From Rugalucina vietnamica (lineage: Eukaryota > Mollusca > Bivalvia > Lucinida > Lucinidae): a DNA stretch of 64,000 nucleotides. Shown one piece after another: positions 4,085 through 63,921 of this stretch. The notes under the pieces are model-generated. The model had not been told where the DNA came from. It ran no database searches and was given only the letters and a program-made list of their open reading frames with translations. Within the stretch, counting starts at the first letter, position 1. Every line of letters begins with the position of its first letter. Made by a program: the position numbers and the translations under genes. The DNA is taken from NCBI GenBank assembly GCA_964017185.1, contig OZ024880.1, positions 42,312,329-42,376,328 on the forward strand. Reading direction: 5' to 3'.

Positions 4085-7000
4085 ATCTACTTTATTGTCT
4101 GTTAATTGTCCTCTAATGAGAGCTGGACTTGTTTGACCTCTCTAAATGAGCCGCCTCGTGGGAAAACCAACAATGTGGTTTCCGAACAGGTCCGACACAA
4201 ACCAGCCTGTACAAGCACAGGAAAGTGCTAGAAGCTTGAAATTTCGGATTTAAGTAGAAGAGGAATTGTACTATCCGAGTAGCGAAAACAAAGGCGCTGA
4301 TCAGCTTCGCGGTTACCGCGAAGCTGATCTGCGTCTTTGTTTTCGCTTATGGAGATTGTTGGTTTTCCCATGAGGCGGCTCAAATGATACAGAGCAGTAC
4401 CCATTCCAAGTTTTATTGCTGTCATCCTAAATTTTCTTTGGCTTGCCAGGATGATGTTTACTTTGCATACTTTAGCAATCTAGCCTTTGCCGGGCTCTAT
4501 GTGTCCATAGTCCATACCATCCCATCCTGCTGGAGTGGAGCATAGCACCACATCCAACTCATGGAGTCCAAGCTTTGAGAGAAGGGAGTCTGAGCTTACT
4601 TCATCGTAGGCCTTGACATTACAGATCCAGCTAATCATTGTGCAACAAGCAGTTTAAAAGTGTAGCCACAGTCATGGCAAAGTCATGCCCATGTTTTTGC
4701 TATCATGAACTTTAAAGCTAAGTCCATTCAGACCACACATTGAAAAATTGTGATATTTGCTACAGACATGAATGTGCCTCTGATTATGAATATGCTTCAT
4801 TATCTGTCATCTATTTGTTGTAAAATTACAGTATTTTCTCTTTGGCTCCATGTTACCAAATCTATAGTGTCACTGAAGAGGCTTAAGTAGCCGAAACCAC
4901 GGTTTCTCATTGATATGCTCACTGCTCTTAAAGTATCTTAGTTTTATTTTTATTCAAATTTCAAAAGAACTCACCAAAACACTTAAATAACTATATTCAA
5001 GAAATAAAGATGGTCATTCTCATAACTAAGAGGCGAACCAACAACAAAATTTCAACAATTTATTGGGAGGAAAGCACTTTAATACCTTAGTCTGCTCATC
5101 TGTGTATCCAATACTCCCCTGGATATATTCTAGCTCTTGATTACTGATACTAGGGTGTTGGGCGGGAGACTCGGCAACTATCAAGCACCACAACAGAAAC
5201 CATAACAGGGCTATACAGCCTGGAAGTAAACTAAGATCATATAGGAACTGCAGATAGTTTGTTGGCTTTTCTGTTAGTTTGGTTATTTGCTTTACCTCCC
5301 AGTGAACAGCTATGGTTTTATGGGACTTCTGCCCAACAATGGGATGTCATTACAAGCCAAACAATGCTTTACCCAAGAAAAGAACTAAAGTTATTATACC
5401 AGATTTATATAGCACCTTTATCATATGTACATACGTTCAAAAGTGCTTCACACGTTATACATAAAACAATACATACAACAAAATCTATAAATGAGAACTT
5501 AAAATGTTAAAAAATGACTTACAACAGTGTATTATTTATAATTTAATTATATATGTATGGATGGTTTGACTAAACCACTTATACTGGGCAGGCTCAGCCC
5601 TTCTTATTTGTTAACCAATAATTATGTGGTTGGTCAGTTGTTATGATCTTTGGCTGAAGGCATAAGCAGCCCATCTATTTCTAAGACCACAATAGGCAGG
5701 TGCCCAAATGGTCGACCCGCACTGAGGTTGCATTCAGACAAGTTAAATGATAAATGGGTAGTCCTTTACAACAGTGAGTAAAACTTTTGACAATCGGGTA
5801 CCTCCACATTTTTTCTTCAATACTGTATGCCAAAGTGTGTGACACTATGTAGCGATAGATATAAAATGAGAGAAAATATAAAATCTCTAACCAAAGACAT
5901 AGAATATAGATGGCCATCCTGCTGCACTCTGAGCCAAAGCACCAGATATTGGTAATGATATCACTGTCCCGAAATATGAACCTGAAATAGAGATAATGGT
6001 AAACTAGAAATTGGCTGCAAGCAAGGCTTTCAGTATACCCCCCGCAAAATTATCTGGAGCTGGCCAATAACTTCCTAAGTCAAACATGCAGAAAATTTGT
6101 CAAAGATATCTTTTCAGCATTATAATTCTTCATGTACATCCTCAGTATGCCAGTCACATCTATAAGATATTAAAAGAGTATATTGAAAGCTTGAGGTTGA
6201 TTTCATTATTGTATATAAGCAATGGTCAAGAAATGGCTATGTTGAAAAATGATGTAAATTTGTCAAAAATCACTTTTTCAGTATTATAATCATTCATGCA
6301 CATCTTCGATATGTGTGAAACATGTCTGCAAAGTATTAAAAAGAAATACTGAAAGCCCTAGGAGGAGTTGATTTCACAAACTATGCATTACCAACCATTT
6401 TTGTATATACGCCATGGTAAACCAGAGGACCAATGGTCCTGTAAACGCTCACCTGAGACCTGAGATATATACCAATAAACTTGTTTGACTAGAATGGTAT
6501 TATGTATATATCCCCAGGTCAGAGTCAGAGCAACCTCTGGAGTCAATTTCTTTTTTAAATCATAAAGATTCAGTCCATTTGCCAATTTAATGCAAGTTTT
6601 GCCCTTCAAATGACATTTTTTCCTGTTTTTTCCATTCAAATGCATGGGCGGCCTAAGTTGACCATGCCGTAAAAAGGTCAAGGTCATCCCAAGGTCATGA
6701 TTTATACAAACTTTGTAGAGCTTCATTGCCTGATGCTTCATGCCAAGTATCAAAATCATAGGCCTTCTGGTTTTGGAGAAGATTTTTAAAGATTTTTGCT
6801 ATTTACAGCCATGGCGGCCATCTTAGTCATGTGACCTTGACCATATATACAAACTTTCATTCACTCTTCCTCAGAATGCTCCACATAAAGTTTGGCTGTG
6901 ATTGGCCAAGCGGTTTCAGAGAAGAAGATGTTTGAATATCATGGTAATACACAAGTATATAGCCCCGGGACAGGGGCAGACAACCCTCTGAGCCCAAAAT

Positions 7001-10000
7001 ATTTTCATAAACATGAATATTTTGTCCATTTGTTCATTCCTAGCAAGCTTTTTGCCATTTAATGACATTTTCCTGTTTTTTCCATTCAAATGCATGGGCG
7101 GCCTAAGTTGACCTTGCTGTAAAAAAGGTCAAGGTCATCCCAAGGTCATGATTTATACAAACTTTGTAGAGCTTCATTGCCTGATGCTTCATGCCAAGTA
7201 TCAAAATCATAGGCCTTCTGGTTTTGGAGAAGAAGATTTTTAAAGATTTTTGCTATTTACAGCCATGGCGGCCATCTTAGTCATGTGACCTTGACCATAT
7301 ATACAAACTTTCATTCACTCTTCCTCAGAATGCTCCACATAAAGTTTGGCTTTGATTGGCCAAGCGGTTTCAGAGAAGAAGATGTTTGAATATCATGGTA
7401 ATACACAAGTATATAGCCCCGGGACAGGGGCAGACAACCCTCTGAGCCCAAAATATTTTCATAAACATGAATATTTTGTCCATTTGTTCATTCCTAGCAA
7501 GTTTTTTGCCATTTAATGACATTTTCCTGTTTTTTCCATTCAAGTGCATGGGCGGCCTAAGTTGACCTTGCTGTAAAAAAGGTCAAGGTCATCCCAAGGT
7601 CATGATTTATACAAACTTTGTAGAGCTTCATTGCCTGATACTTCATGCTAAGTTTCAAAATCATAGGCCTTCTGGTTCTGGAGAAGAAGATTTTTAAAGG
7701 TTTTGGCTATTTATAGCCATGGCGGCCATCTTGGTCATGTGACCAGGACCATTTATACAAACTTTCGTTCCCCCTTCCTAAGGATGCTCCATGTGAAGTT
7801 TGGCTTTGATTGGCCAGGTGGTTTCAGAGGAGAAGATCTTTGAAATTGTGAACGACGGACGACGGACGACGGACGACGACGGACGACGACGGACGCCGGA
7901 GCATGGGTATACTATAAGCTCACCTATGAGCCTTCGGCTCAGGTGAGCTAAAAAATGGCTATGTTAAAAATGCTGTAAATTTGTCAGAAATTAATTTTTC
8001 AGTATTATAATTCTTGATGCACATCTTCAATATGAGTGGAACATGTCTGCAAAGTATTGAAAAGAAATAGTGAAAGCCCTTGGAGCAGTTGATTTCACAA
8101 AGTAAGCACTACCAACCATTATTGTATATAAGCAATGGTCAAAAATGACTATGTTGAAAAATGCTGTAAATTTGTCAAAACTTTTTTTTTTATCATTATA
8201 ATTCTTCATGCACATCTTCAATATGAGTGAAACATGTCTGCAAAGTATTGAAAAGAAATACTGAAAGCCCTAGGAGAAGTTGATTTCACAAAATATGCAC
8301 TACCAACCATTATTGTATAAGCAATGGTAAAAAAAATGGCTATGTTAAAAATTGCTGTAAATTTGTCAAAAATTATTTTTTCAGCATTATAATTCTTCAT
8401 GCACATCTTCAATATGTGTGGAACATATCTGCAAAGTATTGAAAAGAAATACTGAAAGCCCTAGGAGGAGTTGAGTTCACAAACTATGCACTACCAATCA
8501 TTATTGTATATAAGCAATGGTCAAAAAATGGCTATGTTGAAAAATGTTGTAAATTTGTCAAAAATTATTTTTTCATCATTATAATTCTTCATGCACATCT
8601 TCAATATGTGTGGAACATGTCTGCAAAGTATTGAAAAGAAATACTGAAAGCCCTAGGAGGAGTTGATTTCACAAACTATGCACCACCAACCGTTGTTGAA
8701 TGTGGCAATTATTGAAAATTGTCTAAGTTCAAAATGCTGTAAATTTGTCAAAATTCATTTCTTCTGCATAATACTTCTTCATGCATATCTTCAATATCTC
8801 TGGCACATATCTGCAAAGTATCAAAAGAGAATATTGAAAGCTGTAGGAGGAGTTGATTTCACAAAGTATGCACTATTAGCACTATGGCAAACATTCTATG
8901 CATAGGTTTAAAAAGTCCCATAACTCTTGCAAAACTGACCCTTTGGCCCCTAAATTCATATCACACATGTGTTGTCTAATGGTGCAGGTGTGTTGAAAAT
9001 TTGAAGAACATCGGGCAAATACTACTTAAGTTATTCAGCAAAGATGTCAAAATGTTGACGGAATGACGGAATGACGGACAGGCTGAAAACAGTATACCCC
9101 CCTAAAACTTCGTTTTGCGGGGGGTATAATAAAACATTTTGTATTATCTAATTTAATTGCATGTAACAGGAAATAGCGATTGAAAATATCGCGCACATGC
9201 GCGACAGCTCCATGTATTTACCTGCATTACATGAGGTTCCATATCTCAATAGAAATGCGACAATTTTGTCGCAGCTCTGCACGTTAGAAAGCTTATACAA
9301 TTGCTATCTTATAGCCTTGTTTTCGACTCAGTTCGGCTTTTTTCAGATGCGATCAGACCACGTGGAGGGAAACTACAGAGATAAGCAGATGAAAATTTTG
9401 CAAAACAAACAAGGATTTCAACCATCTGCCGACAGAATCACACATTTATTTTACTTATCATTTTTACATCATTTTGATCTCTGATATTTGAAAGAGTTTC
9501 TAATAGTAAAATATTTGTTTTTAATCTATTATTTCTGGGTTGTAATCTTTTTTGAAGAGTGAGATTGGCTGCTGGAGCCCAGACCCCAAGTATTCAGAGA
9601 TTGCGTGGTTGTGCGAGATTGCGTGGTTGTGCGATCAACCATTTGTTTAGTCCCGATTCATTTCATTCTTTAGTCAGAAATAGTCATTTTGAGTGATTCT
9701 CCTTGATAAGGAGAATTAATGATCGTGTATATATGTGATAATTTCGACCACGATTTTCCGAGATGATCCAGACCTGTGTAAACTGGTCAACATAAGTTAA
9801 GCCCATGCTGAACTTAGAAGTTTTCCATTAAACTTAATGTAAAAACTTAAACATTAATATTTTGTCATAACATTCACTAGGATGATCATTTTGCATTCAA
9901 TTTCAAGCAATAAAGCAACAAAAAGTTTTCAAACCATAGACCCCTGTTTAGCAAGACAAGTGGTTTTACCTCTATGCCATAAAGTCTTCTAATTATACAG

Positions 10001-19198: not shown

Positions 19199-19273
19199 AT
19201 GGGACCAATCAACGGCCCGTTGGTCGTCTTTCTAGTGTGTTTGTGCCTAAAGACTGGATTTGCCTATGTGGAG
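19199..19273 (+). CDS. APP: APP exon 1 (signal peptide)
   Basis: It encodes 25 residues with the hydrophobic core PLVVFLVCLCL and likely cleavage near GFA|YV. The start codon is in good context (A at -3, G at +4). The donor GTAATT is in phase 0, matching the next exon. Confidence 0.85.
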
Positions 19274-55200: not shown

Positions 55201-58200
55201 ACGGCAAGGTCAAATTGGAAACATAGGCTTTTACATAGGAAGAAGTGAAAACTATGGATTTTTTGAAAACACAGACCGAGGCCTGAAAAGTGGTAGATGC
55301 AAACAACTAATGGAGTAGATGAAGGTATGTGATTAATATAGGTCAAGGTCATCTCTTGACCTTGGCCAGTCTGTTGTCCATACACACTTTTCAAAGATCT
55401 TTTCTGAAACTGCTTGGCCAATCAAAGCGAAATTTTATGTGGAACATCCATGGGTAGGGGAAACGAAAGTTTTATAGCGAAATCGAGGTCACATGACCAA
55501 GATGGCCGCCACGCCCATATATGGTAAAAACCACTCAAAAATCTTCTTCTCCAGAACCGGCAGGCCAATTTTCATGAAACTTGGTATGTAGCATTTGGGA
55601 CTCCAGCCCATCATAGTTTGTTGAAATGATGACCCTTGGATGACCTTGACCTATTTTACGGCAAGGTCAATTTTGGAAACATAGGCTTTTACATGGGAAA
55701 AGGCGAAAACAAACTGTTGCAGCCTGAGACCTGAAAGTTGCTAGATGCAGACAACTAATGGAGTCATTGAAGGTAAGTAATTACTGAAGGCCAAGGTCAT
55801 GTCTTGACCTTGGCCCAAGGTCATTTAAATATCAAAATTAAAATTATGGTTTTCTCAGAAATCACTGGGTTTGGAAACTATTGCAGCCTGAGACCTGAAA
55901 CTTTGCAGATGCAGACAACTTATGAAGTCAATAAAGGTGCGTGAGTATTCAAGGTCAAGGTCATTTCATTATGACTTAATACTCCAAGATCAGGCTTCAG
56001 GTGAGCGTTCTCAGGACCAATGGTCCTCTGGTTCTTTTTTTATTTGCCACTAACGACGATTAGTGACAAATATCAAAATAACTGAGAGCCACTAAATCAG
56101 CAGAGAAGACTCAGACAATGCAGGGGCTAGCCGTAGAAATGAGCATGCGGGGTTTTAACCAAAGTTTTGCCCCGGCAGTGCGATGGGGGGGGGGGGGGGG
56201 AAACTATCTGAGATTTGCATATAGTAAGAGGGCAGTGAAATGAAAAGAACGGACAGCGGGGGAAATTAGCTGTGGTTTACCAACCAGCTGTCCCCACAGG
56301 GCAGGGGTTTTAGCAGGTATTTGCTGGATCAAAAGTCAGTCCCCGCTATTCCGGGGATGTGGGGGTGTTTACAAATGACTAGTGCATAAAGGAAGAACAT
56401 CCCCCAAATCATTGTACCTACCAGTGAATCTTGCTCGATTTATATCTAGTGGCTTTGCCAATTTAGTGGCGGTTCTTGCAGCCATCAGGACAGCCATTGC
56501 ATCTTGCTGTTCACATTTTCTGTTGTTGTTGATATCTGAGGACTCAATTTTCTTGTTTATGGTAACATACTTCAGGGATGTGTCAAAGTCTGATAATATG
56601 TGAATTTTTTCATAGGGGTCCACATTGAATTGTTCCCCATGTGGAGTGGCAGACACTGAAACGGCCGATAATTTTTCAAAATTTTCATAACATAATCTGG
56701 GGAGAACATCATCCGGCACAGTATCAGTGGCATAATCAAACAGATCGAACCATGTGCTTGTTTTGGATATTCTACGTATCTTGTTTTTGATGATCTGTTC
56801 GTTGTTTTTTCCGTCAACAACCTTGTTCACACTGACGGAAAATGTTAAGGCCTCATCGGCCATTTTGGAGAAAATCTAGATTGGGTTCTGAATTTTGTAA
56901 GCGGAATGAGGCATTTGGATGCGAAAATTAACCGCGGCACAGTCTACCACCAATCATGATCTACGAGCGCTTTATTCTTATTGTAAATGCATCAACAAAG
57001 CATCTTGAAGATCACGATACAGGTACGACGAACACCCGAACTAGTTTTAGATAAAAACCGGAATCCTAAGTCAGTACCGGACGTTTCGGCCAAAAACGTC
57101 AATAAAAATATTTTTTTTCCAGAGAATGCAATATAATTTTTTGAGTCAGGGGGTAAATTATGGGTCGGGCGGTAAAGGACAAACAAACAATATTTTATTT
57201 TCAGCCTTAGTAAAAGCATGTTGTCTGCATTGCCTTTATTAAAAGGCTGTTGAGACATCCACAAATTGTTCTGAACCTGGACCAGCTTAAGAGTACTTCT
57301 GTTTCAGCCCCTTTACTCTGCTCTAGTTGTGCTCAAGCCAACCCTTTCAGTATAGTTTTTGTATTATTGTGTCTATTTTAGATGATGAAAGAATGGCAGG
57401 CAGCAAGAGAACATGTGTCAGAAATGAGAAAGACAGACAATGTTAAAGCTGAACAACTCAATAAAGAAATTACTGAGGTAAGTCTAGGGGTGGGGTTGGG
57501 GTATCTGTCAGTGGGGGAGGGGGGTAAACTGGTGGAACATAATTGAAATGGAGGAATATCAGTTTTCCCAAGAGAATGTGTCTGATTGGTTAAAAACACT
57601 AGTGTCTGATTGGTTAAAACATTTGTAGAGCATGTGTCTCATTGGTTGAATAATCAAGCACTTAAATCTGATTGGTTAAAACCACAAGAACTTGTATTCA
57701 GTTGGTGGAAGTCTCAAAGAGCATGATTTTTTCTGATTGGTGAAAGACTCAAACGGGTAGTTTTAGTGGCTATTTACTCTAACATGCTTCTTATAGGTAA
57801 AACAGAGCGTCTGAAATTCAAACTATTTAAAAATATTTCCTGTATTTCCCAGAGATTCCAGCGTATGTACCATGCCTATGAGGAGGAAGGTGCTGCGGAG
57901 AAGAAACAACTCTCGTTCCTCCACCAACAACATGTACAGGCTTCATTCAACAAGAAGAAGAGAGAACTAATGGAGAATCTTGCTGAAGAACTTGAGAAGG
58001 ATGAACCAAGGGTAGGTTTTACCCAAATTTACCCGAATAGAGGGTAGGTTTTACCCAAATACACCCAACACAAAGGATAGGTTTTACCCAAATATACCCA
58101 AACTGAGAGTAGTAACTTAGACAGTTGGTTATGAAAGCTGATCTGTCTCAGCCTCATCAGGAAAACATCGGTTATCTCCTAAGCCAACATAAAGTCAAGT

Positions 58201-61200
58201 ATGAATCTCAGTGCTCGTATGTATCGCAGGGGCGTAGCCAGGAAATGTGTAATGTTGAAGCCCAACACCCTTTTTCAGTTGAAATTACTTGTTTTTCCTA
58301 ATTTTTTTCTCAAAAAGACCCGGGGAAATGCCATACTTGAAAAAATCACGTTGAAGCCCAGGCTTCCAGGCGTCCGCCTGGATACGCCCCTGTATCGGCA
58401 AAGTCTTGTTTGTGGTTCACATTGCTTGTACTTTTAATACATATCAGGTTTTGTGAGATGCAACTTTGTCTGAGTTACAAGTAAGGAATGAATTGCATTT
58501 ATTGCTAGATGAAGCGGTAATCTATGATTGTCTCATGCTTATTGTCTACCTCTCTAGAAAATTGATAAAAGCTAATCTATGATTGCCTCATGCTTATTGT
58601 CTACCGCTCTAGAAAATTGATAAAAGCTCAGACAGGCTTTTCTTTGAACAAGATTAAACGAGCCGCGACGCGAGAAAACCGGTCTTCGGGGTTTCCGACC
58701 AGGTCTGACACAAACCGGGCTGTACAGTCTCAGAAGCAGGCTAGAAGCTTGAAATTTCGGATATAAGAAGAAGAGGAAATGTACTATCCGTGTAGCGAAA
58801 ACAAAGGCGCTGATCAGCTTCGCGGTTACCGCGAAGCTGATCTGCGCCTTTGTTTTCGCCTAGGCAAAAATCCGGTTTTCTCACGATGCGGCTCAAACTT
58901 CTGTATCAGTGCTCTAATTAGCACACACCAAGTTATTTTCTGAACAACATGCATCAGTTAACCCTGAGCAACTGGCATATTGGCATTTATTTATTTATTT
59001 ATTTTTTTTGACCGAGTTTGAATATCCTTGTAGATTTTGTAAAGCTAATTATTCAATGATTCACAAACAGGGATTTAATTAGATTGCAAATTTTCCAAAT
59101 TCAGACATGCATTCTTCAGCAAGTTTTTCAAATTTAGACATGTTATTCATGTTAGTGTGATGAAATTCTTTATAGCATTTTAGAAACTTATGCTCATATT
59201 GCATTTAGAATAAGAACAGTATATATGAACCGTGACGCGAGAAAACCGGTCCGGTCTTCGGGGCTTCTGACCCGGTCTGACACAAACTGGCCCGTACATT
59301 CTCAGAAGAAAGCTAGAATCTTGAAATTTTGATTTCAAGTAGAGGAGGAATTGTTCTTTCGGTGAAGCGAAAATAAAGGCGCTGATCAGCTTCGCATTTA
59401 CTTAAGGATTGAAATTCAGATTTTAGCTTTCACTGGATGATGAAAAACATTAGGCTGTTTTAATGTCTGTGAAGCCCGAAGGGCTTCTCGGAGACATTAA
59501 AACAGCTAATGTTTTTCATCATCCAGTGAAAGCTAAAATCTGAATTTCAATACTTATATTTACATTTTATATTATCAATCAAGTATCACATTTTTAATTG
59601 CGCATATCACCGCTCAATTTCATGTTATTCGACATTAAATTTGACTTAACGCAATTTTGGAACAGCCAAAACGTCAAATTTTCGCGCCTAACGTCATGGC
59701 GATACGCGACCAACGTCACGCCAACAATAGTTAACAAACAACGTCACTGGATGGGTTTTGACGTCGCCCCGCCTATAGGCGTGGCCTCTAGGTCACGTGA
59801 CTTAATGTTTTTCATTGGGAAATGAAGAACATCAAGAAAGATACTTTCATATAGGGCGATTGCAATAAAAATGTAAATATTGCGAAGTAAATACGAAGCT
59901 AATCTGTGCCTTTGTTTTTGCATATGCAAAATTCCGGTTTTCTGATTACGCGGCTCTATGATATTTCTGATCATCATCGTTGTGTATTTGTAGACGTCGA
60001 AGGTTCTTAGCTATCTGAAACTGTACATCAGGACAGAGGAGAAGGATCGTCTCCATTCCGTGAACCACTACGAGCACCTGAGAGACACGGATCCGGAGGA
60101 GGCGATCAGGATCAGGCAGGCGGTTACAGACCACCTTAAACTGATCACAAAGAGAATCGAGCAGGCCATCGCGATGTTGAAACGTCACCCAGACCTGGAG
60201 AAAAAGATCACACCAGAGATTGGTTAGTACCATTGACATACTGACCTATACTCACAGGATGCACATGCGTAATATAAAATAGTTAAAACTAGCTAATAAC
60301 ATGGTATTTTTGTCATTTTAAAATACGCATGTGGCTATTTTTGCTGTTTGTGCACAGATCTTGAAATTTTCTGGTAACACCCTTGAGTACTGCCTTTAAC
60401 TATGGGTTTTGGCTCTTCAAAATATTTTGAAGACTCTTTTGACATGGTGTTATATTCACTTGCCTCCAAAACTAGGGGTATAGACTATATGAGCCGCGAC
60501 GCGAGAAAACCGGTCTTCGGGGTTTCCGACCAGGTCTGACATAAATCGGCCTGTACACTTCCAGAAGCAGGCTAGAAGCTTGAAATTTCGGATTTAAGAA
60601 GCTGATCTGCGCCTTTGTTTTCGCCTAGGCAAAAATCCCGTTTTCTCACGATGCGGCTCATATATGGGTTTGATCAAGGGCTCCTCAAGTCTTTGGATTG
60701 GACTTAAATCGCAAATTCCATCTCCATATATGACCTTCATTGTTAAGTGGGAATTAAAATTTAGCAGTCTTTTTATAACTTAACTCTGCTTTTGTATTTG
60801 TTTATACATAGCTCAAGTTATGATCATTTTGAGTGTGTAACCAATATTTGGCTTTGCTTTTACAAAAATGATGGCCGAGTTTTGTTTATGCGAAGCACTA
60901 ATAATCAGTGACTTTGTGTCAATTTCTGTTCCGTCTGTTTCTGTTCCTTCTATTTCTGTTCCTTATATGAGCCGTGACGCGAGAAAACCGGTCTTCGGGG
61001 TTTCCGACCAGGTCCAACACAAACCGGCCTGTACTGTCACTGAAGCAAGCTAGAACAATGAAATTCCGGATTTAAGAAGAAGAGGGTTTGTACTATCCGT
61101 GTAGCGAAAACAAAGGCGCTGATCAGCTTCGCAGTTACTGCGAAGCTGATCTGCGCCTTTGTTTTCGCATAGGCAATAATCCCGTTTTCTCACGCTGCGG

Positions 61201-63921
61201 CTCATATAGAAGAGTGTTTCCTATTTGAAGAAGCTTTTTTGACATTAGCAATATTAAAAAGTTACATATGGCTTCATGCTTTTAAAGCAAAGTAACACAT
61301 TTTCTTACACACATTGGTATAATTATTCTTTGGCTTCTCTGACCTTTTATTCTAAAATTATACAAGTCACCTTGAGACTGCATCTGACCAATATTCATTC
61401 TTGGAATTTTTTGGACTTTACAATCACATACTATGTGTAATCTAGAGTAGATTTTTTGCCTAAGAAAACAAAAGTTTTCTGGTCATCATTCATTTGTCAG
61501 AAATGTCAGATGTTAATAGTGAAAATAGGCAATATTATATATGAGCCTTTGCATGAGAAAACCGACAATTTGGCTTTCTGACCAGGTCCGACACAAACCA
61601 GGCTGTACAGTCACAGAAGTATGCTAGAGGTTTGGAATTTTGGATTTAAGAAGAAGAGGGATTACTCTATCCCAGCAGCGAAAACAAAGACACTGATCAG
61701 CTGTGCAGTTACTGCACAGCAGCTGATCTGCGTCTTTGTTTTTGCCTATGCTGATTGTTTGTTTTGTTAGGCGGCGGCTCATGTAGTTATAACAAGGCAA
61801 AGCCAGAGAGGCAATACATAGCCATAAGAAAAAAGAAACAAAATGACGCAGGCACACATAAGAAGCATTGATTTGTCAATCGGTTTCTTACTAGATAGTA
61901 GATCAGACTTAAAACAGCCTTTGATGTCACGGAAGAAGGCCCCAAAACTAGGTGTTGTAGAAATAGTCACTGCATGGCATTTCATCTACCATCTGCTAGT
62001 ATAGAGGCCTATAAATGTAGTTTCTTTCCCCCAGACTATCAGGGACTGGAATGACCTCCCTGACTCCCTGTTTTCTACCGCTGAAATGTCAGATGATTGT
62101 GTGCCCAAGTTCGCTTCACTCATGCATTCTAGGGACTAATTTCTCCCCCATCCAAACCCCCTGGTGAAATGATGTCATTTGGTGTGTCACGAGTGAACTA
62201 TTCAGATTCAGAAGGATGGAAGCTTGAAATTGAGCCTGTGCATGAGAAAACCAACAACTTGCATATGCGAAAACAAAGACGCAGATCAGCTTTGCGGTAA
62301 CCGCGAAGCTGATCAGCGCCTTTGTTTTCGCTACAGGGTTAGTACAATTCCTCTTCTTTCTAAATCCAAAATTTCCAGTCTCTAGCCATCTTCTGTGCTT
62401 GTACAGCCTGGTTTGTGTCGGACCTGGTCGAAACCTAAATTGTTGGTTTTCTCAAGCACAGGCTCAATTATAGACTGAACAATAAGAGGAATCTTTGCAG
62501 CAAAAGCAAAAGTGCTGACCTTTCATCTTCGTTTTTGCATGTGTGGCATGCCTCATGTAATTCGCCTGTATATTTAATAGAGAGGAATTCTGTCACAAGA
62601 AGTTCTGGCTCAGCTCTGACGATGTCCTACCAAAACTTTTGGAACCCCAATCTAATTTTTCATCTTCATGTTATATAATTCCATCCCATATACACCTCAA
62701 CCTCTTTATAACACTATTGCTGGGGTCCAAGCCAATTTCCGTGTTAGCTATCCAATCCGTGTTATAACGAAAGTAAAATGTATAGGCATATAGCAAAAAT
62801 AGTCAATTTGAGGAGTTCCGTCACAAGAATTTCCAAAACATCCAGCTCAGCTCTGACGAGGTACTACTGAAGCTTGTGGAACTCCTTTACCAATCTAATT
62901 TTTCATTAATTTTTCATAGTATATAATTCCATCTCATATATTACAGAGGAGTTCCGTCACAAGAAGTTCCGTAACATCCAGCTCAGCTCTGACGAGGTAC
63001 TACTGAAGCCTATTGAACCAACGATGCCCAAAGTCAAAGAAGTTGTTCTAAGTGAGTATTAATCATGCCTTAGATTTTCTTACTATGGAACATGAGTATC
63101 ATATGAGCTGCTGCATAAGAAAACCAACAATCTATGCAAAAACAAAGCAGCAGATCAGCCGTGCAGTAACTGCACGGCTGATCAGCGCCTTTGTTTTCGC
63201 TCCATAGATAGGGCAATACCTCTTCTTCTTAAATCCGGAATTTCAAGCTTCTAGCCTGCTTTTGTGACTGAACAGGCCGGTTTGTGTCGTACCTGGTCGG
63301 AAACCCAAATTGTTGGTTTTCTCACACACAGGCTCATATCCCTAAACAGTTATCTTTTAAAATTTGACCTGTGATATTTAAAAAAAATAAACTACAACTC
63401 CCAAAATTAAAGAAGTTGTTCTTAGGGAGTGTGACTGATACCTAGGATTCTCTTTTACTACCATGGAAAATTATTTCTTAAGTTATCATTTACGGAGTGG
63501 GGTGATAGCATGTCAAGACTTCGAATCAAGAAGTACTGGGTTTGAACCCGACTGGGGTTATGTCCTTACTATGACACATTTATTTCCCATATTACTGATT
63601 TATACTCATGTAGTGGCGAGGCGATTGTAACCTGTACCAACCATCTGTGTTTTGTGCAAAAGTAAGATTTTTTTTTCAACTGAAAATTTTTCGGTTTTTA
63701 CAACTAGGAAAGTCTGTATATTGCTTGGGTGTGTTTCCTTAACACTAATATGTTTCGTTCCAGCCCCAGAACTAGTAGATAGTAGTGAGAGTTTTGTCGA
63801 CTCTGCTGAGAAGGAACATGACTACACCAATATCAGGATAGACACAGAGGGACTGCAGTCCGAGGATACCAACCAGCCATATGTCGCTCATGTCCAGAAT
63901 GATGCCGCTCATTTACAACAG
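19199..63921 (+). CDS. APP: Amyloid precursor protein orthologue, ectodomain exons
   Basis: This is a type I membrane protein of the APP/APPL family, which acts in adhesion, synapse and axon biology and is cut by secretases. Ten coding exons (19199-19273, 23370-23537, 25997-26129, 33376-33585, 43727-43908, 57382-57477, 57853-58011, 59994-60222, 62947-63051, 63764-63921) join in frame to 505 residues. Residues 1-22 are a signal peptide. Residues 26-195 are E1: NGWEPDYDRNMTCLEDP, ILNYCKKLYPD, and FQGVEYVCCPK at its end. Residues 196-220 are a short acidic linker and about 221-430 are E2 (EKDRLHSVNHYEHLRDTDPE). The rest is juxtamembrane stalk. No Kunitz exon was seen. The membrane helix, amyloid-beta region and NPxY tail lie past the right edge. 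E1 lacks one disulfide pair and the copper histidines of vertebrate APP. Confidence 0.96.
19564..19712 (+). mobile_element. tRNA-derived SINE-like repeat
   Basis: TGTGGTGGCCTAGTGACTTG and the box-B-like GGTTCGAACTCC are followed by a non-tRNA body. Located in APP intron 1. Confidence 0.55.
20073..20900 (+). mobile_element. 5'-truncated LINE with reverse-transcriptase C-terminus
   Basis: An open frame from 20080 to 20790 encodes 236 residues: WQMKFNVSKCHSMRVTR, SAKYLGLTITDDLDWGQHI, LVRPQLEYAAPIWHPY and the end motif FFPRTIPVWNSLPSSVV. These are the thumb and C-terminal motifs of non-LTR retrotransposons of the jockey/CR1/L2 type. The palm domain and endonuclease are missing, as usual for 5'-truncated insertions. 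It lies in APP intron 1 in sense direction and is open, so it is probably young. A short 3' tail follows the stop. Confidence 0.88.
20901..22984. other. APP intron 1, mostly unassigned
   Basis: No exon or recognised repeat. A T-rich homopolymer (22479-22524, one interruption) and a short repeated ACATTGTAGTATCCTTGCTT (about 22668 and 22692) are the only low-complexity features. Confidence 0.55.
22985..23337. mobile_element. H-family remnant split by a SINE
   Basis: Left part 22985-23053 (GTACACCCCAGTTTAACTTT) and right part 23294-23337 (GTGGGTATACAATTCACGG, CCTGATGG) are pieces of the H-family end, separated by the SINE at 23054-23293. Confidence 0.6.
23054..23293 (+). mobile_element. tRNA-derived SINE (family S) with 13-bp target duplication
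   Basis: It reads GCGGCCCCCGTGATCGAGCG, box B GGTTCGAGCCCC, the tail GAAAGGGACATAAAACTGAA and poly-A. AAGTGGGTATACA occurs at 23041-23053 and 23294-23306, a clear 13-bp target-site duplication of the LINE-mobilised type. Confidence 0.92.
23370..23537 (+). CDS. APP: APP exon 2 (E1 growth-factor-like part)
   Basis: 56 residues, 26-81. CNKPAMHRVVNGWEPDYDR and CLEDPDDILNYCKK match the first half of E1. The acceptor is TTGTTCCAG and the donor GTAAGG, phase 0 on both sides. It has one more cysteine (VCFIC) than the vertebrate domain here. Confidence 0.95.
23538..24541. other. APP intron 2, nothing recognised
   Basis: No repeat family or exon identified, apart from the donor at its left end. Confidence 0.5.
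24542..24770. mobile_element. F-family MITE, copy 2
   Basis: GGGGCAAGTTGTTCAAAATT at the left, AACAACTGGGCCCAG at the right, and interior arms TGTTATTTTTTGTTG and CAACGAAAAATAACA. Confidence 0.82.
25566..25838. mobile_element. H-family palindromic MITE, copy 3 (best preserved)
   Basis: The central palindrome 25642-25755 is near perfect: ATTTTTCTTATTTTTGCTC, GATTGTGGGTAC, centre CGCCTCGCCGAGGCG, and mirrored arms. Imperfect terminal repeats are GAAAACACGCCCATGCAATA and its counterpart at GACATGTTTTCC. Confidence 0.82.
25997..26129 (+). CDS. APP: APP exon 3 (E1 middle)
   Basis: Residues 82-125 plus one base: LYPDHDIRNIVEAAYKVDI, TDWPKFDG, then RPFKCI. It follows human YPELQITNVVEA. The human basic loop with two cysteines after the tryptophan (WCKRGRKQC) is replaced by WPKFDGPGSETK. 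The acceptor is TTTCAG and the donor GTAAGT. Confidence 0.95.
26330..26488 (-). mobile_element. SINE (family S), 5'-truncated
   Basis: T-rich start, then the tail and body of family S in complement up to GCTTGTCTCACATGTGGC. The tRNA-like head is absent. A short tandem repeat follows. Confidence 0.8.
26489..26600. repeat. Short tandem repeat GCAGTAGTGACATTGGACCT
   Basis: GCAGTAGTGACATTGGACCT-like units recur three times at about 30-base spacing, with a diverged fourth. Confidence 0.8.
26668..28486 (+). mobile_element. E-family Helentron-like element, copy 3
   Basis: The 5' end is ATACCCCCCGCAAAACG with hairpin arm TTTTAGGGGGGTAT. Then follow a short ATTCCGTC repeat, about eight core units of roughly 190 bases, the subterminal TTTTGCGGGGGGTAT, and the 3' end AGCCAATTTCTAG|TT. 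It is uninterrupted, making it the clearest copy. Confidence 0.85.
28590..28825. mobile_element. B-family MITE, full length
   Basis: 236 bases. Core arms CTTCACAG and CTGCGAAG differ by one base pair. Termini TGAGCTGCGTCATGAGAAAA and TTTTCTTGCGCTGTGGCTCA have drifted apart. Confidence 0.88.
30302..30839. mobile_element. Non-autonomous TIR element nested in the foldback
   Basis: CTTAAAGTACTCTAAAGTCA pairs with TGACTCCATAGTACTTTAAG. Pairing continues through AAAACGTGGGTTGGCATTTC and its complement. About 535 bases, no reading frame. Confidence 0.78.
31113..31723. mobile_element. Mariner-type MITE with TA duplication
   Basis: The left end CAGGGTGTCCC, a C/A run and CGTGTCCGCTACAA mirrors the right end TTGTAGCGGCTACG, then GGGACACCCGG. 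TA flanks both sides (31111-31112, 31724-31725), as in Tc1/mariner insertions. No transposase remains. Confidence 0.85.
33376..33585 (+). CDS. APP: APP exon 4 (E1 copper-domain fold)
   Basis: Residues 126-195, GDFESEALLVPQHCIF to FQGVEYVCCPK. It has six cysteines, as in the family. Human His147/149/151 and Tyr168 are not conserved (CERPSSWSK here). GC content is higher than in the surrounding intron. The acceptor is CTTCAG and the donor GTGAGA. Confidence 0.96.
33686..33866. repeat. 31-bp minisatellite grown inside a B-family fragment
   Basis: GCTCATCTGCAGCTTTGTTT with TTGCATA recurs five times at about 31-base intervals. The unit is the B-family right-of-centre segment (GCTGATCTGCGCCTTTGTTT), so the array grew from a MITE fragment. 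Confidence 0.88.
33955..37551 (+). mobile_element. D-family Helentron-like element, copy 3, with nested element
   Basis: 5' hairpin AGCTCACCTGAGCC, a GTCGTCGTCC microsatellite, then about ten units of roughly 165 bases, each with CTTCTTCTCTGAAACCAC and GTCAAATTTGGCCACGCCCC. Near the 3' end come TCTCAGGTGAGCTA and AGGACCAATGGTCCTCTAG|T. It uses a second core type, unlike copies 1, 2 and 5. Interrupted at 34597-36042. Confidence 0.83.
34597..36042. mobile_element. Nested element K1, internal part shared with K2
   Basis: It interrupts a D core unit after TTGGTA. It begins CCGTATTCACATGCGTATAA. The interior shares ATACAAGATTTAGGTGTCCC and GGTCTATCGATAATCCCCTA with the element at 50282-51452. The right half has four copies of an 85-base unit with CTTGGCGAATGCCTAG and T-rich runs (35500-35860). 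A TAGAA pentanucleotide run lies at 34932-34953. Confidence 0.7.
37552..38020. other. APP intron 4, nothing recognised
   Basis: No repeat family, exon or RNA gene was identified. Confidence 0.5.
38021..38241. mobile_element. B-family MITE
   Basis: Termini TGAGCCGCTGCATGGGAAAA and TTTTCTGGCGCACAGGCTCA. The core stem CTTCGCAGTAACTGCGAAG is perfect. Confidence 0.88.
38732..38950. mobile_element. B-family MITE, left end worn
   Basis: The core stem GCTGTGCAGTTACTGCACAGC is perfect. The left terminus is degenerate (GTGCCTTCGTAGAGAAAACC). A more decayed relative may precede it from 38551. Confidence 0.8.
39390..39552 (-). mobile_element. tRNA-derived SINE (family T)
   Basis: On the minus strand: GGAGCCCACTAGACTCTGAA, box B GGGTTCGATCCC, the body CTTGAGCAAAACACA and the tail GTTGACTGGGACGTTAAAC. 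The same order occurs at 44192-44391. Confidence 0.75.
39771..39982. mobile_element. B-family MITE, core collapsed
   Basis: Termini TGAGCCGCCTCATGGGAAAA and TTTTCCCACGAGGCGGCTCA are well kept. The core stem has lost one arm (CAGCTTCGCGCC). Confidence 0.85.
40428..40486. mobile_element. B-family MITE fragment
   Basis: Only the left end remains: TGAGCCATGATGTGAGAAAA and GTTTCTGACCAGGTCTCA. Confidence 0.65.
40640..42157. mobile_element. L-family palindromic MITE split by D copy 4
   Basis: The left piece has AACTCATATAAGCCTGACAT and GCAAACAGTAAAGCCCCAGA; the right piece has GCGTCACATCTGAGGCTGTT and CTGTTTGC. Between them are several ATCTCCCTATTT repeats and D copy 4. An unsplit relative is at 47441-47552. 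Confidence 0.7.
40881..42073 (+). mobile_element. D-family Helentron-like element, copy 4
   Basis: AGCTCACCTGAGCC at the left, CAGGTGAGCTACAGGACCAA and TGGTCCTCTAG|T at the right, with six units of the second core type. It is inserted between T residues of the surrounding CTCCCTATTT repeat. Confidence 0.85.
42409..42645. mobile_element. B-family MITE, full length
   Basis: Core stem CTTCGCAGTAACTGCGAAG is perfect. The right end carries the CCGAAGACCGG variant of the terminus. Confidence 0.9.
42646..43230. other. APP intron 4, weak local repeat only
   Basis: TGCACCTAAAGCTCTGATCA and TGCACCTAAAGCTGTGATTA repeat about 75 bases apart near 42715 and 42790. Nothing else recognised. Confidence 0.5.
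43231..43396. mobile_element. B-family MITE, right part missing
   Basis: It opens TGAGCTTTTGCATGAGAAAA and stops inside the first core arm, GATCAGCTGTGC. Confidence 0.75.
43460..43695. mobile_element. B-family MITE, full length, beside APP exon 5
   Basis: TGAGCCGCATCGTGAGAAAA and TTTTCTCACGATGCGGCTCA are an exact 20-base inverted pair. The core stem CTTCGCGGTAACCGCGAAG is perfect. It ends 31 bases before exon 5. Confidence 0.93.
43727..43908 (+). CDS. APP: APP exon 5 (acidic linker and start of E2)
   Basis: Residues 196-256. A short acidic stretch, ESSEESAEDD, replaces the long acidic region of vertebrates. Then come DNKFLDKYESEHAKFKAAEK and MLKEQHEKVTK, the first E2 helix. The acceptor follows a B-family MITE by only 31 bases; the donor is GTAAGT. 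Confidence 0.94.
43999..44182 (+). mobile_element. SINE (family S), 5'-truncated
   Basis: It begins within the tRNA-like head (GTCCAGTGTGGGTCC) and continues through ACAAGCCAAGTT, GTGCCAGGTGGTTTTTCTC and GAAAGGGATGTAAAACTAAA. Confidence 0.78.
44192..44391 (+). mobile_element. tRNA-derived SINE (family T), full length
   Basis: GGGGAGTATGGTGGTGTAGT with GGTAGAAC as box A and GGGTTCGATCACC as box B. The body is GTCCTTGAGCAAGGCACTTT and the tail GTTGACTGGGACGTTAAGCC. It directly follows the family S copy. Confidence 0.82.
44703..44937. mobile_element. B-family MITE, core decayed
   Basis: TGAGCCGCTGCACAAGAAAA and TTTTCTCACGCACAGGCTCA. Core arms (CTTTGCAATTCCGCGAAG) are mismatched. Confidence 0.85.
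44938..45590. other. APP intron 5, nothing recognised
   Basis: No repeat or exon identified. A worn family T SINE fragment probably follows at 45590-45720 (GTTGAGTGGGTTGTTCAACC). Confidence 0.45.
45877..46112. mobile_element. B-family MITE, full length
   Basis: TGAGCCGCCACATGGGAAAA to TTTTCTCATGAGGCGGCTTA. The core reads CTGCGCGGTAACTGCGAAG, with two unpaired positions. Confidence 0.88.
46475..47431. mobile_element. hAT-type MITE with 8-bp target duplication
   Basis: Ends are TTAGGATGGGAACGAATATT and CATTCGTTCCCATCCTTA. ATAAAAAT occurs at 46467-46474 and 47432-47439, an 8-bp duplication as made by hAT transposases. 957 bases, no transposase. A degenerate B-family copy lies inside (47012-47207). 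Confidence 0.87.
47012..47207. mobile_element. Degenerate B-family MITE inside the hAT element
   Basis: AACCGACACAAACCAGACTG, GCGAAAACAAAGGCGCTGAT and TTTTCAAATGACGCAGCTCA mark the body and right end. It looks older than the other B copies. Confidence 0.7.
47441..47552. mobile_element. L-family palindromic MITE, intact copy
   Basis: GCAAACAGAATAGCCCAAGA pairs with TGCGGCTATTCTGTTTGC around the centre GCCGCATTCTGCGGC. It directly follows the right target duplication of the hAT element. Confidence 0.8.
47650..47885. mobile_element. B-family MITE, full length
   Basis: CGAGCCACCTCATGGGAAAA pairs with TTTTCCCATGGGGTGGCTCA: the changed base pair in ACC/GGT is matched on the other end. Core stem CTTCGCGGTTACCGCGAAG is perfect. 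Confidence 0.92.
48140..48270. repeat. Dispersed repeat Q, copy 2 (inverted)
   Basis: AGTCAAACCATCCATACTTA, CTGAGCCTGCCCAGG and GGTTAACCGCT occur in the reverse order of the copy at 5525-5690. Confidence 0.65.
48271..49383. other. APP intron 5, nothing firm
   Basis: A SINE-tail-like fragment (GTTGACTGGGACCTTAA, near 48388) is the only recognisable piece. Confidence 0.5.
49384..49460 (+). mobile_element. tRNA-like head of an unclassified SINE
   Basis: GTGAAGTGGCCTGGTGAAGA and box-B-like GGTTCGAACACC with roughly tRNA spacing, not folding into a credible tRNA gene. Confidence 0.5.
49534..49764. mobile_element. F-family MITE, copy 3
   Basis: GGGCCTAGTTGTTCAAAGTT at the left, TTTTGAACAACTGGGCCCAG at the right. 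AAATGGCAATATTACAAATA pairs inside with TTTGTAATATTGCCATTT. Confidence 0.87.
49871..49918. repeat. Short palindrome GGGAACAACTT, copy 2
   Basis: GGGAACAACTTGC pairs with GCAAGTTGTTCTC, as at 15492-15541, with a different loop. Confidence 0.7.
49921..50234. mobile_element. MITE with GGGGTTGGTAAT ends (family O)
   Basis: CAGGGGTTGGTAATCAAAGC pairs imperfectly with CTAGTTACTAACCCCAG. The interior is full of CTTAAG and CTTACGA motifs. No frame. Confidence 0.72.
50282..51452. mobile_element. Element K2, pogo/mariner-like ends
   Basis: CAGACCCGTTATAACG at the left and ATAGCGGGTCTG at the right. The interior shares ATACAAGATTTAGGTGTCCC and TCTATCGACAATCCCCTAGC with K1 and two copies of the CCATAAAGAGAAACTG unit. 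No transposase found. Confidence 0.72.
51620..51854. mobile_element. B-family MITE, full length
   Basis: GGAGCCGCCCCATGGGAAAA to TTTTCCCACGAGGCGGCTCA. Core stem CTTCGCAGTAACTGCGAAG is perfect. Confidence 0.9.
51855..52485. other. APP intron 5, nothing recognised
   Basis: No repeat or exon identified. Confidence 0.5.
52486..52982. mobile_element. MITE with GGCCTGTCACAC ends (family N)
   Basis: GGGCCTGTCACACAATCACA at the left pairs with GTGTGTGACAGGGGCTTT at the right. The interior repeats AACTCATG, CTCGTAG and related words on both strands. Confidence 0.8.
53690..53810. mobile_element. H-family fragment
   Basis: GAACAAAAATAAGAAAAGAT, AGGTATACAC and CCAGTTTTTCTGTATATA match the right half of the H element. 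Confidence 0.6.
53902..56031 (+). mobile_element. D-family Helentron-like element, copy 5
   Basis: 5' end AGCTCACCTGAGCC, a GTCCGTCC microsatellite, then nearly four 460-base units of the first core type (GGTCACATGACCAAGATGGC, CCGCCACGCCCATATATGG, GACCTTGACCTATTTTAC). It ends CAGGTGAGCGTTCTCAGGAC, CAATGGTCCTCTGG|T. Confidence 0.85.
56186..56202. repeat. Poly-G tract
   Basis: About 17 consecutive G residues in a GC-rich patch, a likely site of assembly and length error. Confidence 0.85.
56369..56863 (-). CDS. Unrecognised 164-residue reading frame, maybe a transposon gene exon
   Basis: This is an open frame of 164 residues starting MADEALTFSVSVNKVVDGKN. It is rich in charged residues and has no membrane segment or signal peptide. 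Length and ordinary amino-acid composition make chance less likely than for the other short frames here. A good donor (ACTG|GTAGGT, near 56423) after INRARFT suggests a first exon of about 147 residues. It lies inside APP intron 5 on the opposite strand. It also lies between inverted sequences near 53.0 and 57.2 kb, so it may belong to a DNA transposon. No family was recognised. Confidence 0.5.
   Translation of the reverse strand: MADEALTFSVSVNKVVDGKNNEQIIKNKIRRISKTSTWFDLFDYATDTVPDDVLPRLCYENFEKLSAVSVSATPHGEQFNVDPYEKIHILSDFDTSLKYVTINKKIESSDINNNRKCEQQDAMAVLMAARTATKLAKPLDINRARFTGRYNDLGDVLPLCTSHL
57382..57477 (+). CDS. APP: APP exon 6 (E2)
   Basis: 32 residues, 257-288: MMKEWQAAREHVSEMRKTD continues the E2 helix (human VMREWEEAERQAK). 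The acceptor is CTATTTTAG and the donor GTAAGT, phase 0 on both sides. Confidence 0.93.
57576..57750. repeat. Array of TCTGATTGGTTAAA in APP intron 6
   Basis: ATTGG-containing units occur near 57581, 57606, 57638, 57667 and 57733, with a diverged one at 57700. ATTGG is the complement of the CCAAT box bound by NF-Y. Units are 20-35 bases apart. Confidence 0.75.
57853..58011 (+). CDS. APP: APP exon 7 (E2)
   Basis: Residues 289-341: RFQRMYHAYEEEGAAEKKQL and HQQHVQASFNKKKRELMEN. It matches the E2 helix with EEEGNAEKHQL in the fly protein. The donor is GTAGGT, and the donor region is itself part of a short tandem repeat. Confidence 0.95.
58010..58110 (+). repeat. Tandem repeat that includes the exon 7 splice donor
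   Basis: AGGGTAGGTTTTACCCAAAT occurs at 58009 and 58041, and with GGATAG at about 58074. The first copy supplies the real donor; the second has an intact GTAGGT 32 bases downstream. Confidence 0.88.
58517..58628. repeat. 55-bp direct tandem duplication
   Basis: TAATCTATGATTG, CTCATGCTTATTGTCTACC and CTCTAGAAAATTGATAAAAG occur twice with two differences. Confidence 0.92.
58659..58895. mobile_element. B-family MITE, full length
   Basis: CGAGCCGCGACGCGAGAAAA to TTTTCTCACGATGCGGCTCA. Core stem CTTCGCGGTTACCGCGAAG is perfect. The left end carries the CCGGTCTTCGGGG variant. Confidence 0.92.
59226..59957. mobile_element. B-family MITE split at its hairpin by a G-family palindrome
   Basis: The left half (59226-59400) stops within the first core arm, GATCAGCTTCGCATTTACT. 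The right half (about 59878-59957) resumes GCGAAGTAAATACGAAGCTA and ends near ACGCGGCTCT. The G-family element lies between. Confidence 0.78.
59400..59877. mobile_element. G-family element with 144-bp palindrome and ACGTCA-rich tail
   Basis: Arms at 59408-59551 run from ATTGAAATTCAGATTTTAGC to GCTAAAATCTGAATTTCAAT with AGCCCGAAGGGCT at the centre. The tail has several ACGTCA or ACGTCAC words, GGTCACGTGAC, and a third partial copy of the arm, AATGTTTTTCATT. Confidence 0.82.
59994..60222 (+). CDS. APP: APP exon 8 (E2 heparin-binding helices)
   Basis: Residues 342-417 plus one base: LKLYIRTEEKDRLHSVNHYE and HLRDTDPEEAIRIRQ. This is the best conserved piece of E2 (human [20 protein letters not shown]). 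The acceptor is TATTTGTAG and the donor GTTAGT. Confidence 0.96.
60490..60660. mobile_element. B-family MITE, centre deleted
   Basis: TGAGCCGCGACGCGAGAAAA to TTTTCTCACGATGCGGCTCA. The left core arm and neighbouring 60 bases are missing (GGATTTAAGAAGCTGATCTG). Confidence 0.87.
60968..61204. mobile_element. B-family MITE, full length
   Basis: TGAGCCGTGACGCGAGAAAA to TTTTCTCACGCTGCGGCTCA. Core stem CTTCGCAGTTACTGCGAAG is perfect. TATA flanks both sides. Confidence 0.92.
61542..61781. mobile_element. B-family MITE, full length
   Basis: Second-type core GCTGTGCAGTTACTGCACAGC with a 3-base AGC duplication in the right arm. Termini TGAGCCTTTGCATGAGAAAA and GTTAGGCGGCGGCTCA. Confidence 0.88.
62014..62139 (+). 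mobile_element. LINE reverse-transcriptase tail fragment
   Basis: It encodes FPQTIRDWNDLPDSLFST and CVPKFASLMHSRD before a TAA. This is the conserved C-terminal motif of jockey/CR1-like LINE reverse transcriptases (FFPRT-WN-LP). A frameshift lies just before it, where AYKCSFFP is read in the adjacent frame. Confidence 0.75.
62231..62466. mobile_element. B-family MITE, full length
   Basis: Termini TGAGCCTGTGCATGAGAAAA and TTTTCTCAAGCACAGGCTCA belong to the third terminal variant and match each other. Core CTTTGCGGTAACCGCGAAG has one mismatch. Confidence 0.92.
62583..62650 (+). pseudogene. Decayed copy (first) of APP exon 9
   Basis: It begins AGGAATTCTGTCACAAGAAG, parallel to the start of exon 9, lacks about 12 internal bases and has diverged after CAGCTCTGACGA. 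The sequence after it (CAATCTAATTTTTCAT) is shared with the second copy, which supports tandem duplication. Confidence 0.8.
62690..62790. mobile_element. Fragment with GTTATAACG ends (K/pogo-like)
   Basis: CCTCTTTATAACACTATTGC, GGGGTCCAAGCC and CCGTGTTATAACGAAAG resemble the terminal region of K2. It interrupts the exon 9 duplication array. Confidence 0.55.
62811..62890 (+). pseudogene. Decayed copy (second) of APP exon 9
   Basis: It is nearly identical to exon 9 from AGGAGTTCCGTCACAAGAA to GAGGTACTACTGAAGC. The acceptor AG has been lost in favour of TTTG, and the 3' third has diverged. It lies 136 bases upstream of the real exon. Confidence 0.88.
62947..63051 (+). CDS. APP: APP exon 9 (stalk)
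   Basis: Residues 418-452 plus one base: EEFRHKKFRNIQLSSDEVLL and KPIEPTMPKVKEVVL. The acceptor is TATTACAG and the donor GTGAGT. Two decayed tandem copies precede it. Confidence 0.88.
63104..63336. mobile_element. B-family MITE, full length
   Basis: Core stem GATCAGCCGTGCAGTAACTG, CACGGCTGATC is perfect and of a third type (CCGTGC/GCACGG). Termini TGAGCTGCTGCATAAGAAAA and TTTTCTCACACACAGGCTCA. Confidence 0.9.
63494..63590 (+). mobile_element. tRNA-like SINE head in APP intron 9
   Basis: GGGGTGATAGCATGTCAAGA, box-B-like GGGTTTGAACCCG and ATGTCCTTACTATGACAC. Not a credible tRNA gene. Confidence 0.45.
63764..63921 (+). CDS. APP: APP exon 10 (juxtamembrane stalk)
   Basis: Residues 453-505: PELVDSSESFVDSAEKEHD, then IDTEGLQSEDTNQPYVAHVQ and AAHLQQ. 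It is acidic and low in hydrophobics, as expected just outside the membrane. The acceptor is GTTCCAG and the donor GTAATT, phase 0. The next exon, with the membrane helix, is outside the window. Confidence 0.9.

Follow-up and report, generated by a model that had tools for sequence, protein, structure and literature searches.

Sola2 transposons have 4-bp target duplications, AWWT, in the reported descriptions (PMC3627910) and are listed among elements of bivalve genomes (PMC10294476). Short multi-copy elements of molluscs include the bivalve pearl MITEs (CvA, DTC84) and DTCM1/2, and the passages on DTC84 describe a conserved palindrome carried by its copies (PMC5139131). Bacterial REPINs are short mobile DNA studied for its within-genome evolution, and ‘hairpin’ occurs 17 times in the text on them (PMC3116915). 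Template switching that repairs or remakes stems has been documented (PMC8794818, PMC8604942), and sections on the transposon Galileo discuss gap repair with template switching together with exchange between copies (PMC4168063).

The stretch of Rugalucina vietnamica DNA analysed here (64 kb, ‘the window’) contains a repeat family that shares features with several of these. Its 4-bp, AT-rich target duplications are of the AWWT type, as in Sola2 (PMC3627910), but its long subterminal hairpin goes unmentioned in the passages on Sola2 compared; the likeness lies in the duplications. It resembles pearl and DTCM1/2 in being a short multi-copy mollusc element, although internal tandem repeats, a feature of pearl in the descriptions compared, occur here in only one degenerate copy. 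REPINs, unlike this family, are bacterial in the text cited (PMC3116915). Matched changes close to the hairpin axis re-establish pairing, as do template-switch mutations of quasipalindromes and RNA stems (PMC8794818, PMC8604942); those cases, in contrast, concern RNA genes and yeast coding genes, in reports whose main texts contain no word starting with ‘transpos’, and no spacer inversion is seen in the Rugalucina family. We infer by analogy that template switching, or gap repair of the Galileo type, may operate in this family.

A profile built from 15 full copies gave 60 matches at E<1e-3 in the 64-kb window, lying in 31 stretches and, since 59228–59402 and 59882–59956 are a single copy interrupted by an insert, in 30 places; 20 order-1 Markov shuffles of the window gave no match. 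This bears out the original prediction of a family (family B) of about 27 whole or partial copies, and at such a density there are presumably very many copies in the genome. The copies, named hereafter by their first coordinate, are as follows; end types 1, 2 and 3 were assigned by eye, and 15116, 28591 and 38731 are only loose fits.

4148–4381, + strand: full copy, type 1 ends; hairpin 4282–4346; tip CTTCGCGG, matched; target duplication AAAT/AAAT
13166–13399, + strand: full copy, type 1 ends; hairpin 13300–13364; tip CTTCGCGG, matched; target duplication AAAT
15116–15351, − strand: copy, type 2 ends; hairpin 15152–15216; tip CTGTGCAG, matched; closest relative 43461
28591–28825, − strand: full copy, type 2-like ends; hairpin 28626–28690; tip CTTCGCAG, one mismatch (pair 28); target duplication AAGT
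38021–38240, − strand: full copy, type 3 ends; hairpin 38056–38120; tip CTTCGCAG, matched
38731–38949, + strand: copy, type 3-like ends; hairpin 38850–38914; tip CTGTGCAG, matched
39772–39981, − strand: copy, type 1 ends; tip and much of left arm deleted
42410–42644, − strand: mosaic full copy, type 2 ends, type 1-like middle; hairpin 42445–42509; tip CTTCGCAG, matched
43461–43695, − strand: full copy, type 2, left end equal to right end (15/15); hairpin 43496–43560; tip CTTCGCGG, matched; target duplication ATTT
44704–44936, − strand: full copy, type 3 ends; hairpin 44739–44802; tip decayed, unmatched
45878–46110, − strand: full copy, type 1 ends; hairpin 45913–45977; tip unmatched (left TTCGCAG, right read back TGCGCGG)
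47651–47884, + strand: full copy, type 1 ends; hairpin 47785–47849; tip CTTCGCGG, matched; target duplication ATAC
51620–51853, − strand: full copy, type 1 ends; hairpin 51655–51719; tip CTTCGCAG, matched; target duplication CTAT
58660–58894, + strand: full copy, type 2 ends; hairpin 58795–58859; tip CTTCGCGG, matched; target duplication AAAC
60969–61203, + strand: full copy, type 2 ends; hairpin 61104–61168; tip CTTCGCAG, matched; target duplication ATAT
61543–61780, + strand: full copy, type 3 ends; hairpin 61678–61745 with 3-nt insert; tip CTGTGCAG, matched
62232–62465, − strand: full copy, type 3, left-end sequence at right end (1 mismatch/15); hairpin 62267–62331; tip with one mismatch (pair 27); target duplication AATT
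63105–63335, − strand: full copy, type 3 ends; hairpin 63136–63200; private tip CCGTGCAG, matched; target duplication ATAT
60491–60659, + strand: copy, type 2 ends, left arm and part of middle deleted; target duplication ATAT
2688–2847, + strand: copy, left arm deleted; right-arm tip only, read back TGCGTAGT
13959–14168, + strand: copy, right arm mostly deleted; left tip TTCACAG
43232–43397, + strand: left part of a copy; left tip starts CTGTGC
47023–47205, + strand: degenerate copy, hairpin tip lost
59228–59956, + strand: single copy interrupted at hairpin tip by insert of about 480 bp
33641–33897, + strand: degenerate copy, 33641–33762 at E<1e-3; right arm amplified as 27-bp tandem repeat, 33729–33868
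4–143, − strand: copy cut near window edge
14194–14397, − strand: fragment, E 4e-14
15654–15749, − strand: weak fragment, E 5e-5
17746–17891, − strand: weak fragment, E 2e-5
40428–40481, + strand: left-end fragment, E 2e-7

The insert within the tip of 59228 (59403–59881) itself contains a hairpin, with 51-nt arms, and the tandem repeat in the right hairpin arm of degenerate copy 33641 runs to about five units.

Full copies are about 234 bp long, start GAGCC and finish GGCTC, and consist of a left end of 30 nt, a middle of about 100 nt, a hairpin (two 32-nt arms and one central base) and a right end. The GAGCC...GGCTC ends are inverted terminal repeats, with 1–3 mismatches/15 in type 1 copies and 0–10 in the other types. 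Exact 4-bp target duplications were found in 11 of 20 flank pairs (69/80 bases equal; shuffles gave a mean of 1.7 exact, 0/2000 as high), and the same 20 pairs showed no excess of duplications of 2, 3 or 5–9 nt. The duplicated site is AWWT-like, with A first in 18/20 on both sides and T last in 17/20 on the left and 16/20 on the right. Judging from the mismatches between duplicates (11/80), copies appear to have decayed after inserting, and several of the one-arm differences described below may therefore be later noise. Helitrons and Helentrons (HINEs) are not known to make a target duplication, and an element of that type is ruled out by the 4-bp duplications. The family is a non-autonomous DNA transposon with terminal inverted repeats (a MITE), an ordinary type of element. 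The window contains no complete open reading frame of 250 aa (translation table 11), and no transposase was seen within its 64 kb; the copies are probably mobilised in trans by a Sola2-type transposase, the best guess given AWWT-like duplications such as are reported for Sola2. Rfam returned no family at gathering score. A hairpin 16-mer matched 14 viral contigs, yet BLAST of the element against these gave no alignment longer than 23 nt, and further sequence patterns and a peptide search gave no matches in the viral contigs, genome contigs or phages searched. Six 15-nt family strings were absent from the literature texts searched, and among the papers listed by the literature search none was recognised as describing the family.

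Base-pair covariation is standard evidence for a selected structure, and the family illustrates a control that such evidence needs: its outer ends, originally predicted to covary, appear to do so until subfamily is taken into account. Arm counts were made on the 17 copies with at least 31/32 columns in each arm, leaving out copies without one arm or tip, degenerate 33641 and interrupted 59228–59956. Left and right ends matched in 191/255 cells in these 17, more than in any of 5000 global shuffles (mean 172), but shuffling within types gave a mean of 189.1, with 1519/5000 at least as high as observed; for end columns 16–27 (170/204 matching), 3/5000 global shuffles were as high, compared with 4209/5000 within types. 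Covariation of the outer ends is thus rejected, and descent from a few founder copies, which the original prediction had named as the finding that would undo it, explains their match. The near-symmetry of GCCGCCTCRTGGG arises because one subfamily carries it at both ends. The sequence GCCGCATCGTGAG stands at both ends of one copy only (43461), near relatives of which, for example 58660, have GCGACGCGAG as their left end and GCATCGTGAG as their right end, and GCCTGTGC stands at both ends of 62232 only. Copies of types 2 and 3 have 3–10 mismatches/15 between their own ends (3 in 15116), except for 43461 (0) and 62232 (1), and only these two look like end-to-end copying. Outer-end likeness is shared ancestry together with these two single-copy events. 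Linkage between the two ends (mean r2 0.28) exceeds their linkage to the middle (0.06–0.19), as if ends and middle had separate histories (the row of 15116 lacking its first six bases in these values).

That the tips of the hairpin match beyond subfamily ancestry, an unusual property in an ordinary element, is partly established. The variable tip pairs 25, 26, 27 and 30 all matched in 14/17 two-armed copies, against a mean of 4.4 copies when right arms were shuffled and 5.5 when they were shuffled within subfamily; 0/20000 shuffles reached 14, whether global or within types. Within-type shuffles were used because related sequences can exceed shuffles without any structure. At these pairs (left/right) five copies had TTCG/TTCG, five TTCA/TTCA, three TGTA/TGTA and one CGTA/CGTA, and three were unmatched; a fourth copy, 28591, had a tip mismatch at pair 28, leaving pairs 24–32 wholly matched in 13/17 (unmatched: 28591, 44704, 45878 and 62232). 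The claim that the stem exists in several versions, each with its own complement, therefore holds for four tip versions at the copies originally named, and CTTCGCGG occurs also at 13166 and 43461, beyond those copies, but 4/17 tips are unmatched. In the interrupted copy 59228–59956, inspected by eye, the tip has an apparent matched private change (pair 31) and a mismatch (pair 29). In an independent count on the 14 distinct hairpins, both sides had changed in 14 cells (shuffled mean 5.7, 0/500) and the covariation score was 0.141 against 0.094 (0/500), both values falling far lower when partners were slid; the number of pairs changed on both sides showed a weak excess (37/500) and further pair types none (438/500).

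The restriction of matched changes to the tip is, like the matching itself, directly observed. In the 17 copies, 15 cells changed in both arms lay in pairs 24–32 compared with one in pairs 1–23, and, apart from a single cell at pair 13, no matched change lay more than 8 nt from the axis. Tip mismatches (8/153 cells, one of them a gap) were not clearly rarer than those of the stem as a whole without pair 17 (23/374), so that the pattern looks like a gain of matched changes rather than a purging of mismatches.

When the arms were compared with trees of the unpaired segments for the copies in the window, as originally proposed, the tip association exceeded ancestry, but the tree was poorly resolved: most branches of the tree of 17 copies are weakly supported, and an independent-pairs test on supported branches found two pairs only (p 0.5, no power). 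Ancestry alone does not account for the tip, since the association survives shuffling within subfamilies and the versions cut across the tree, with several present within each subfamily. On trees made without the hairpin, L30 required 6–7 changes and R30 five. AU tests rejected the grouping of the five TTCG tips (p 0.014 on unpaired columns and 3.5e-5 with ends), and did so too with 62232 added (0.0045; below 1e-50 with ends), and for the four GTGCA tips p was 0.057 on unpaired columns and 0.0006 with ends (all trees using ends having 15116 without its first six bases). The best-supported sisters by middle, 15116 and 43461 (96/91 to 97/93; 91/90 with ends; not grouped on ends alone, where p was 0.46 and grouping was not rejected), have different bases at three tip pairs, each of them matched in both copies.

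The shuffling of sequence between copies offers one way of accounting for this without any rewriting of arms: a few founder hairpins with matched tips may have spread by recombination, the two halves of each tip being held together by short-range linkage. At least one mosaic copy is directly observed, 42410, whose ends reject grouping with type 1 (p 5.5e-7) and whose middle supports it (80/92), as such spread would lead one to expect. Mean r2 drops from 0.45 at 1 nt to 0.09 at 51–100 nt, rising again between the two ends, and this too is consistent with founder spread. Homoplasy is not peculiar to the tip, with 0.40–0.85 changes per minor-allele copy outside the hairpin compared with 0.67–0.95 at the tip, the trees being based in part on these columns and having 15116 without its first six bases. 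Given the mosaicism and the decay of linkage with distance, short-range linkage accounts for part of the tip association. Compared with non-tip column pairs at equal distance, coupling at pair 30 is ordinary (10/55 as high) and is explained in this way; pair 26 is exceptional (0/71) and pair 27 high (4/79), and these two, less well explained, stand above background linkage, although they are linked to each other and so are not independent evidence. Moreover, the self-complementarity of every common version, and of the private one in 63105, is left unexplained by linkage. We regard founder spread as improbable.

Independent CpG decay of the two arms at one paired CpG is a further possible origin of the matches, pairs 27 and 30 being CpG-type transitions in both arms. 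However, neither pair 26 (T to G) nor pair 25 (T to C) is a CpG change. In both arms of the 17 copies, the changes at the CpG of pairs 29 and 30 are confined to G30 and spare C29, whereas L14 and L15 have both changed; outside this set, interrupted copy 59228 departs at right position 29. Very little weight can be given to such decay, which is unlikely as the sole cause of matched tips.

No other part of the element, the ends included, is as conserved as the body of the hairpin. Non-modal cells number 1/204 at L1–L12, 0/153 at L16–L24, 1/153 at R24–R16 and 9/204 at R12–R1, against 206/1747 in the middle and 18–24% in the ends; more variation is found within the hairpin at pairs 13–15 and 25–30. 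Covariation of the whole stem is rejected, the variable outer pairs 3, 13, 14 and 15 all matching in 5/17 copies, below the shuffled mean of 6.5. Differences between the outer parts of the arms have not been copied across at pair 17 (17/17), L15 (4 copies) or R13 (4/5 bearers). On the element strand, one-arm changes scored by eye in the 14 distinct rows gave 13 G-U and 8 A-C combinations, from which no conclusion is drawn on RNA-specific pairing.

This conservation is what would be expected under the strong rival to arm copying, selection for pairing, in which mobilisation would involve recognition of the hairpin, either as a DNA or RNA fold or as a palindromic binding site, and in master copies only compensated tip changes would survive. 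Pair 17, 16 nt from the axis, has kept its T/T mismatch in 17/17 copies; folding is far stronger than in shuffles (DNA folds of 5/17 hairpins gave −23.9 to −39.4 kcal/mol, z −7 to −13); singletons are few at pairs 16–24 (1/306 compared with 49/1747 in the middle, p 0.004, or p 0.11 without CG/TG/CA sites); and tip pairs 25–31 are mismatched less than the other variable pairs, 13–15 (7/119 vs 12/51, p 0.002). Yet those same pairs 13–15, in the same stem, tolerate one-arm changes, with both arms changed in one copy only, and the scarcity of tip mismatches is no longer clear, as noted, against the stem as a whole. The coexistence of several tip versions in each subfamily also argues against selection, as does the lack, among the 17 copies, of a matched single-step intermediate between TTCG and TGTG, which differ (TTC to TGT) by a change at two adjacent pairs; unmatched single steps do occur on right arms (TGCG in 45878, TTTG in 62232 and TTTA in 44704). 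Pairing selection seems to us rather unlikely, though a better candidate than founder spread.

The best explanation, to which we assign a probability of roughly 0.45, is arm-from-arm copying by template switching close to the axis, followed by reshuffling of tips among mosaic copies of a MITE mobilised in trans. By descent the outer ends fall into three types, which differ in how similar left and right end are, and the inner hairpin combines a sequence-conserved stem with a variable tip. Occasionally one tip arm would be recopied from the other by template switching at the hairpin, on an occasion such as replication or the repair of a gap after excision. The copied tract would reach about 8 nt from the axis, not 16, and a mutation in one arm would so become matched; matched tips may afterwards have been reshuffled among copies by exchange. 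Excision-gap repair could be a common source of tip rewriting and of mosaic copies.

Counting for arm copying are the two single copies, 43461 and 62232, in which one outer end equals or nearly equals the other. Against it count the number of two-armed copies, 17 only, with their poorly resolved tree; the distance of 6–14 nt between tip partners, at which linkage contributes; the conservation of the stem near the tip, highest in the element, as suits a selected structure; the two measures on 14 hairpins that showed little or no excess (37/500 and 438/500); and the lack of tip inversion. No inversion was seen in any of the 17 copies, the centre base being T in 15, C in one and A in one (where the alignment is unsure), which leaves the intermolecular form of template switching without support. 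The original prediction had posed a choice between selection for the hairpin and copying of one arm from the other; that choice stands for the tip, where matching exceeds ancestry, but falls away for the outer ends, and making it needs more copies than one 64-kb window contains. We tentatively suggest, as a possibility short of even odds, that fold-back copying rewrites tips often enough to produce matched changes without selection for pairing, at less than 16 nt from the axis. Were this true, base-pair covariation, the usual proof of functional structure, would be a mutational footprint. The presumably many genomic copies would allow matched changes made by copying alone to be counted, together with their reach from the axis.

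The window also contains exons of an APP (amyloid precursor protein) gene, with Pfam matches (APP_N, APP_Cu_bd and APP_E2) in 3/10 open reading frames scanned:

23280–23648: exon
33243–33617: exon
57727–58047: exon

Since repeats lie around and between these exons, many are probably in introns of the gene. Another family of fold-backs, whose arms measure about 55 nt and whose tips differ, occurs at 25635–25765, 16349–16480 and 17196–17400, the last with a longer, GC-rich tip; as a comparison hairpin it has too few copies for a test. Tandem repeats with periods of about 165, 191, 454 and 465 bp form long arrays at 1657–2552, 6597–7844, 7950–8875, 26944–28248, 36045–37453 and 53999–55815.
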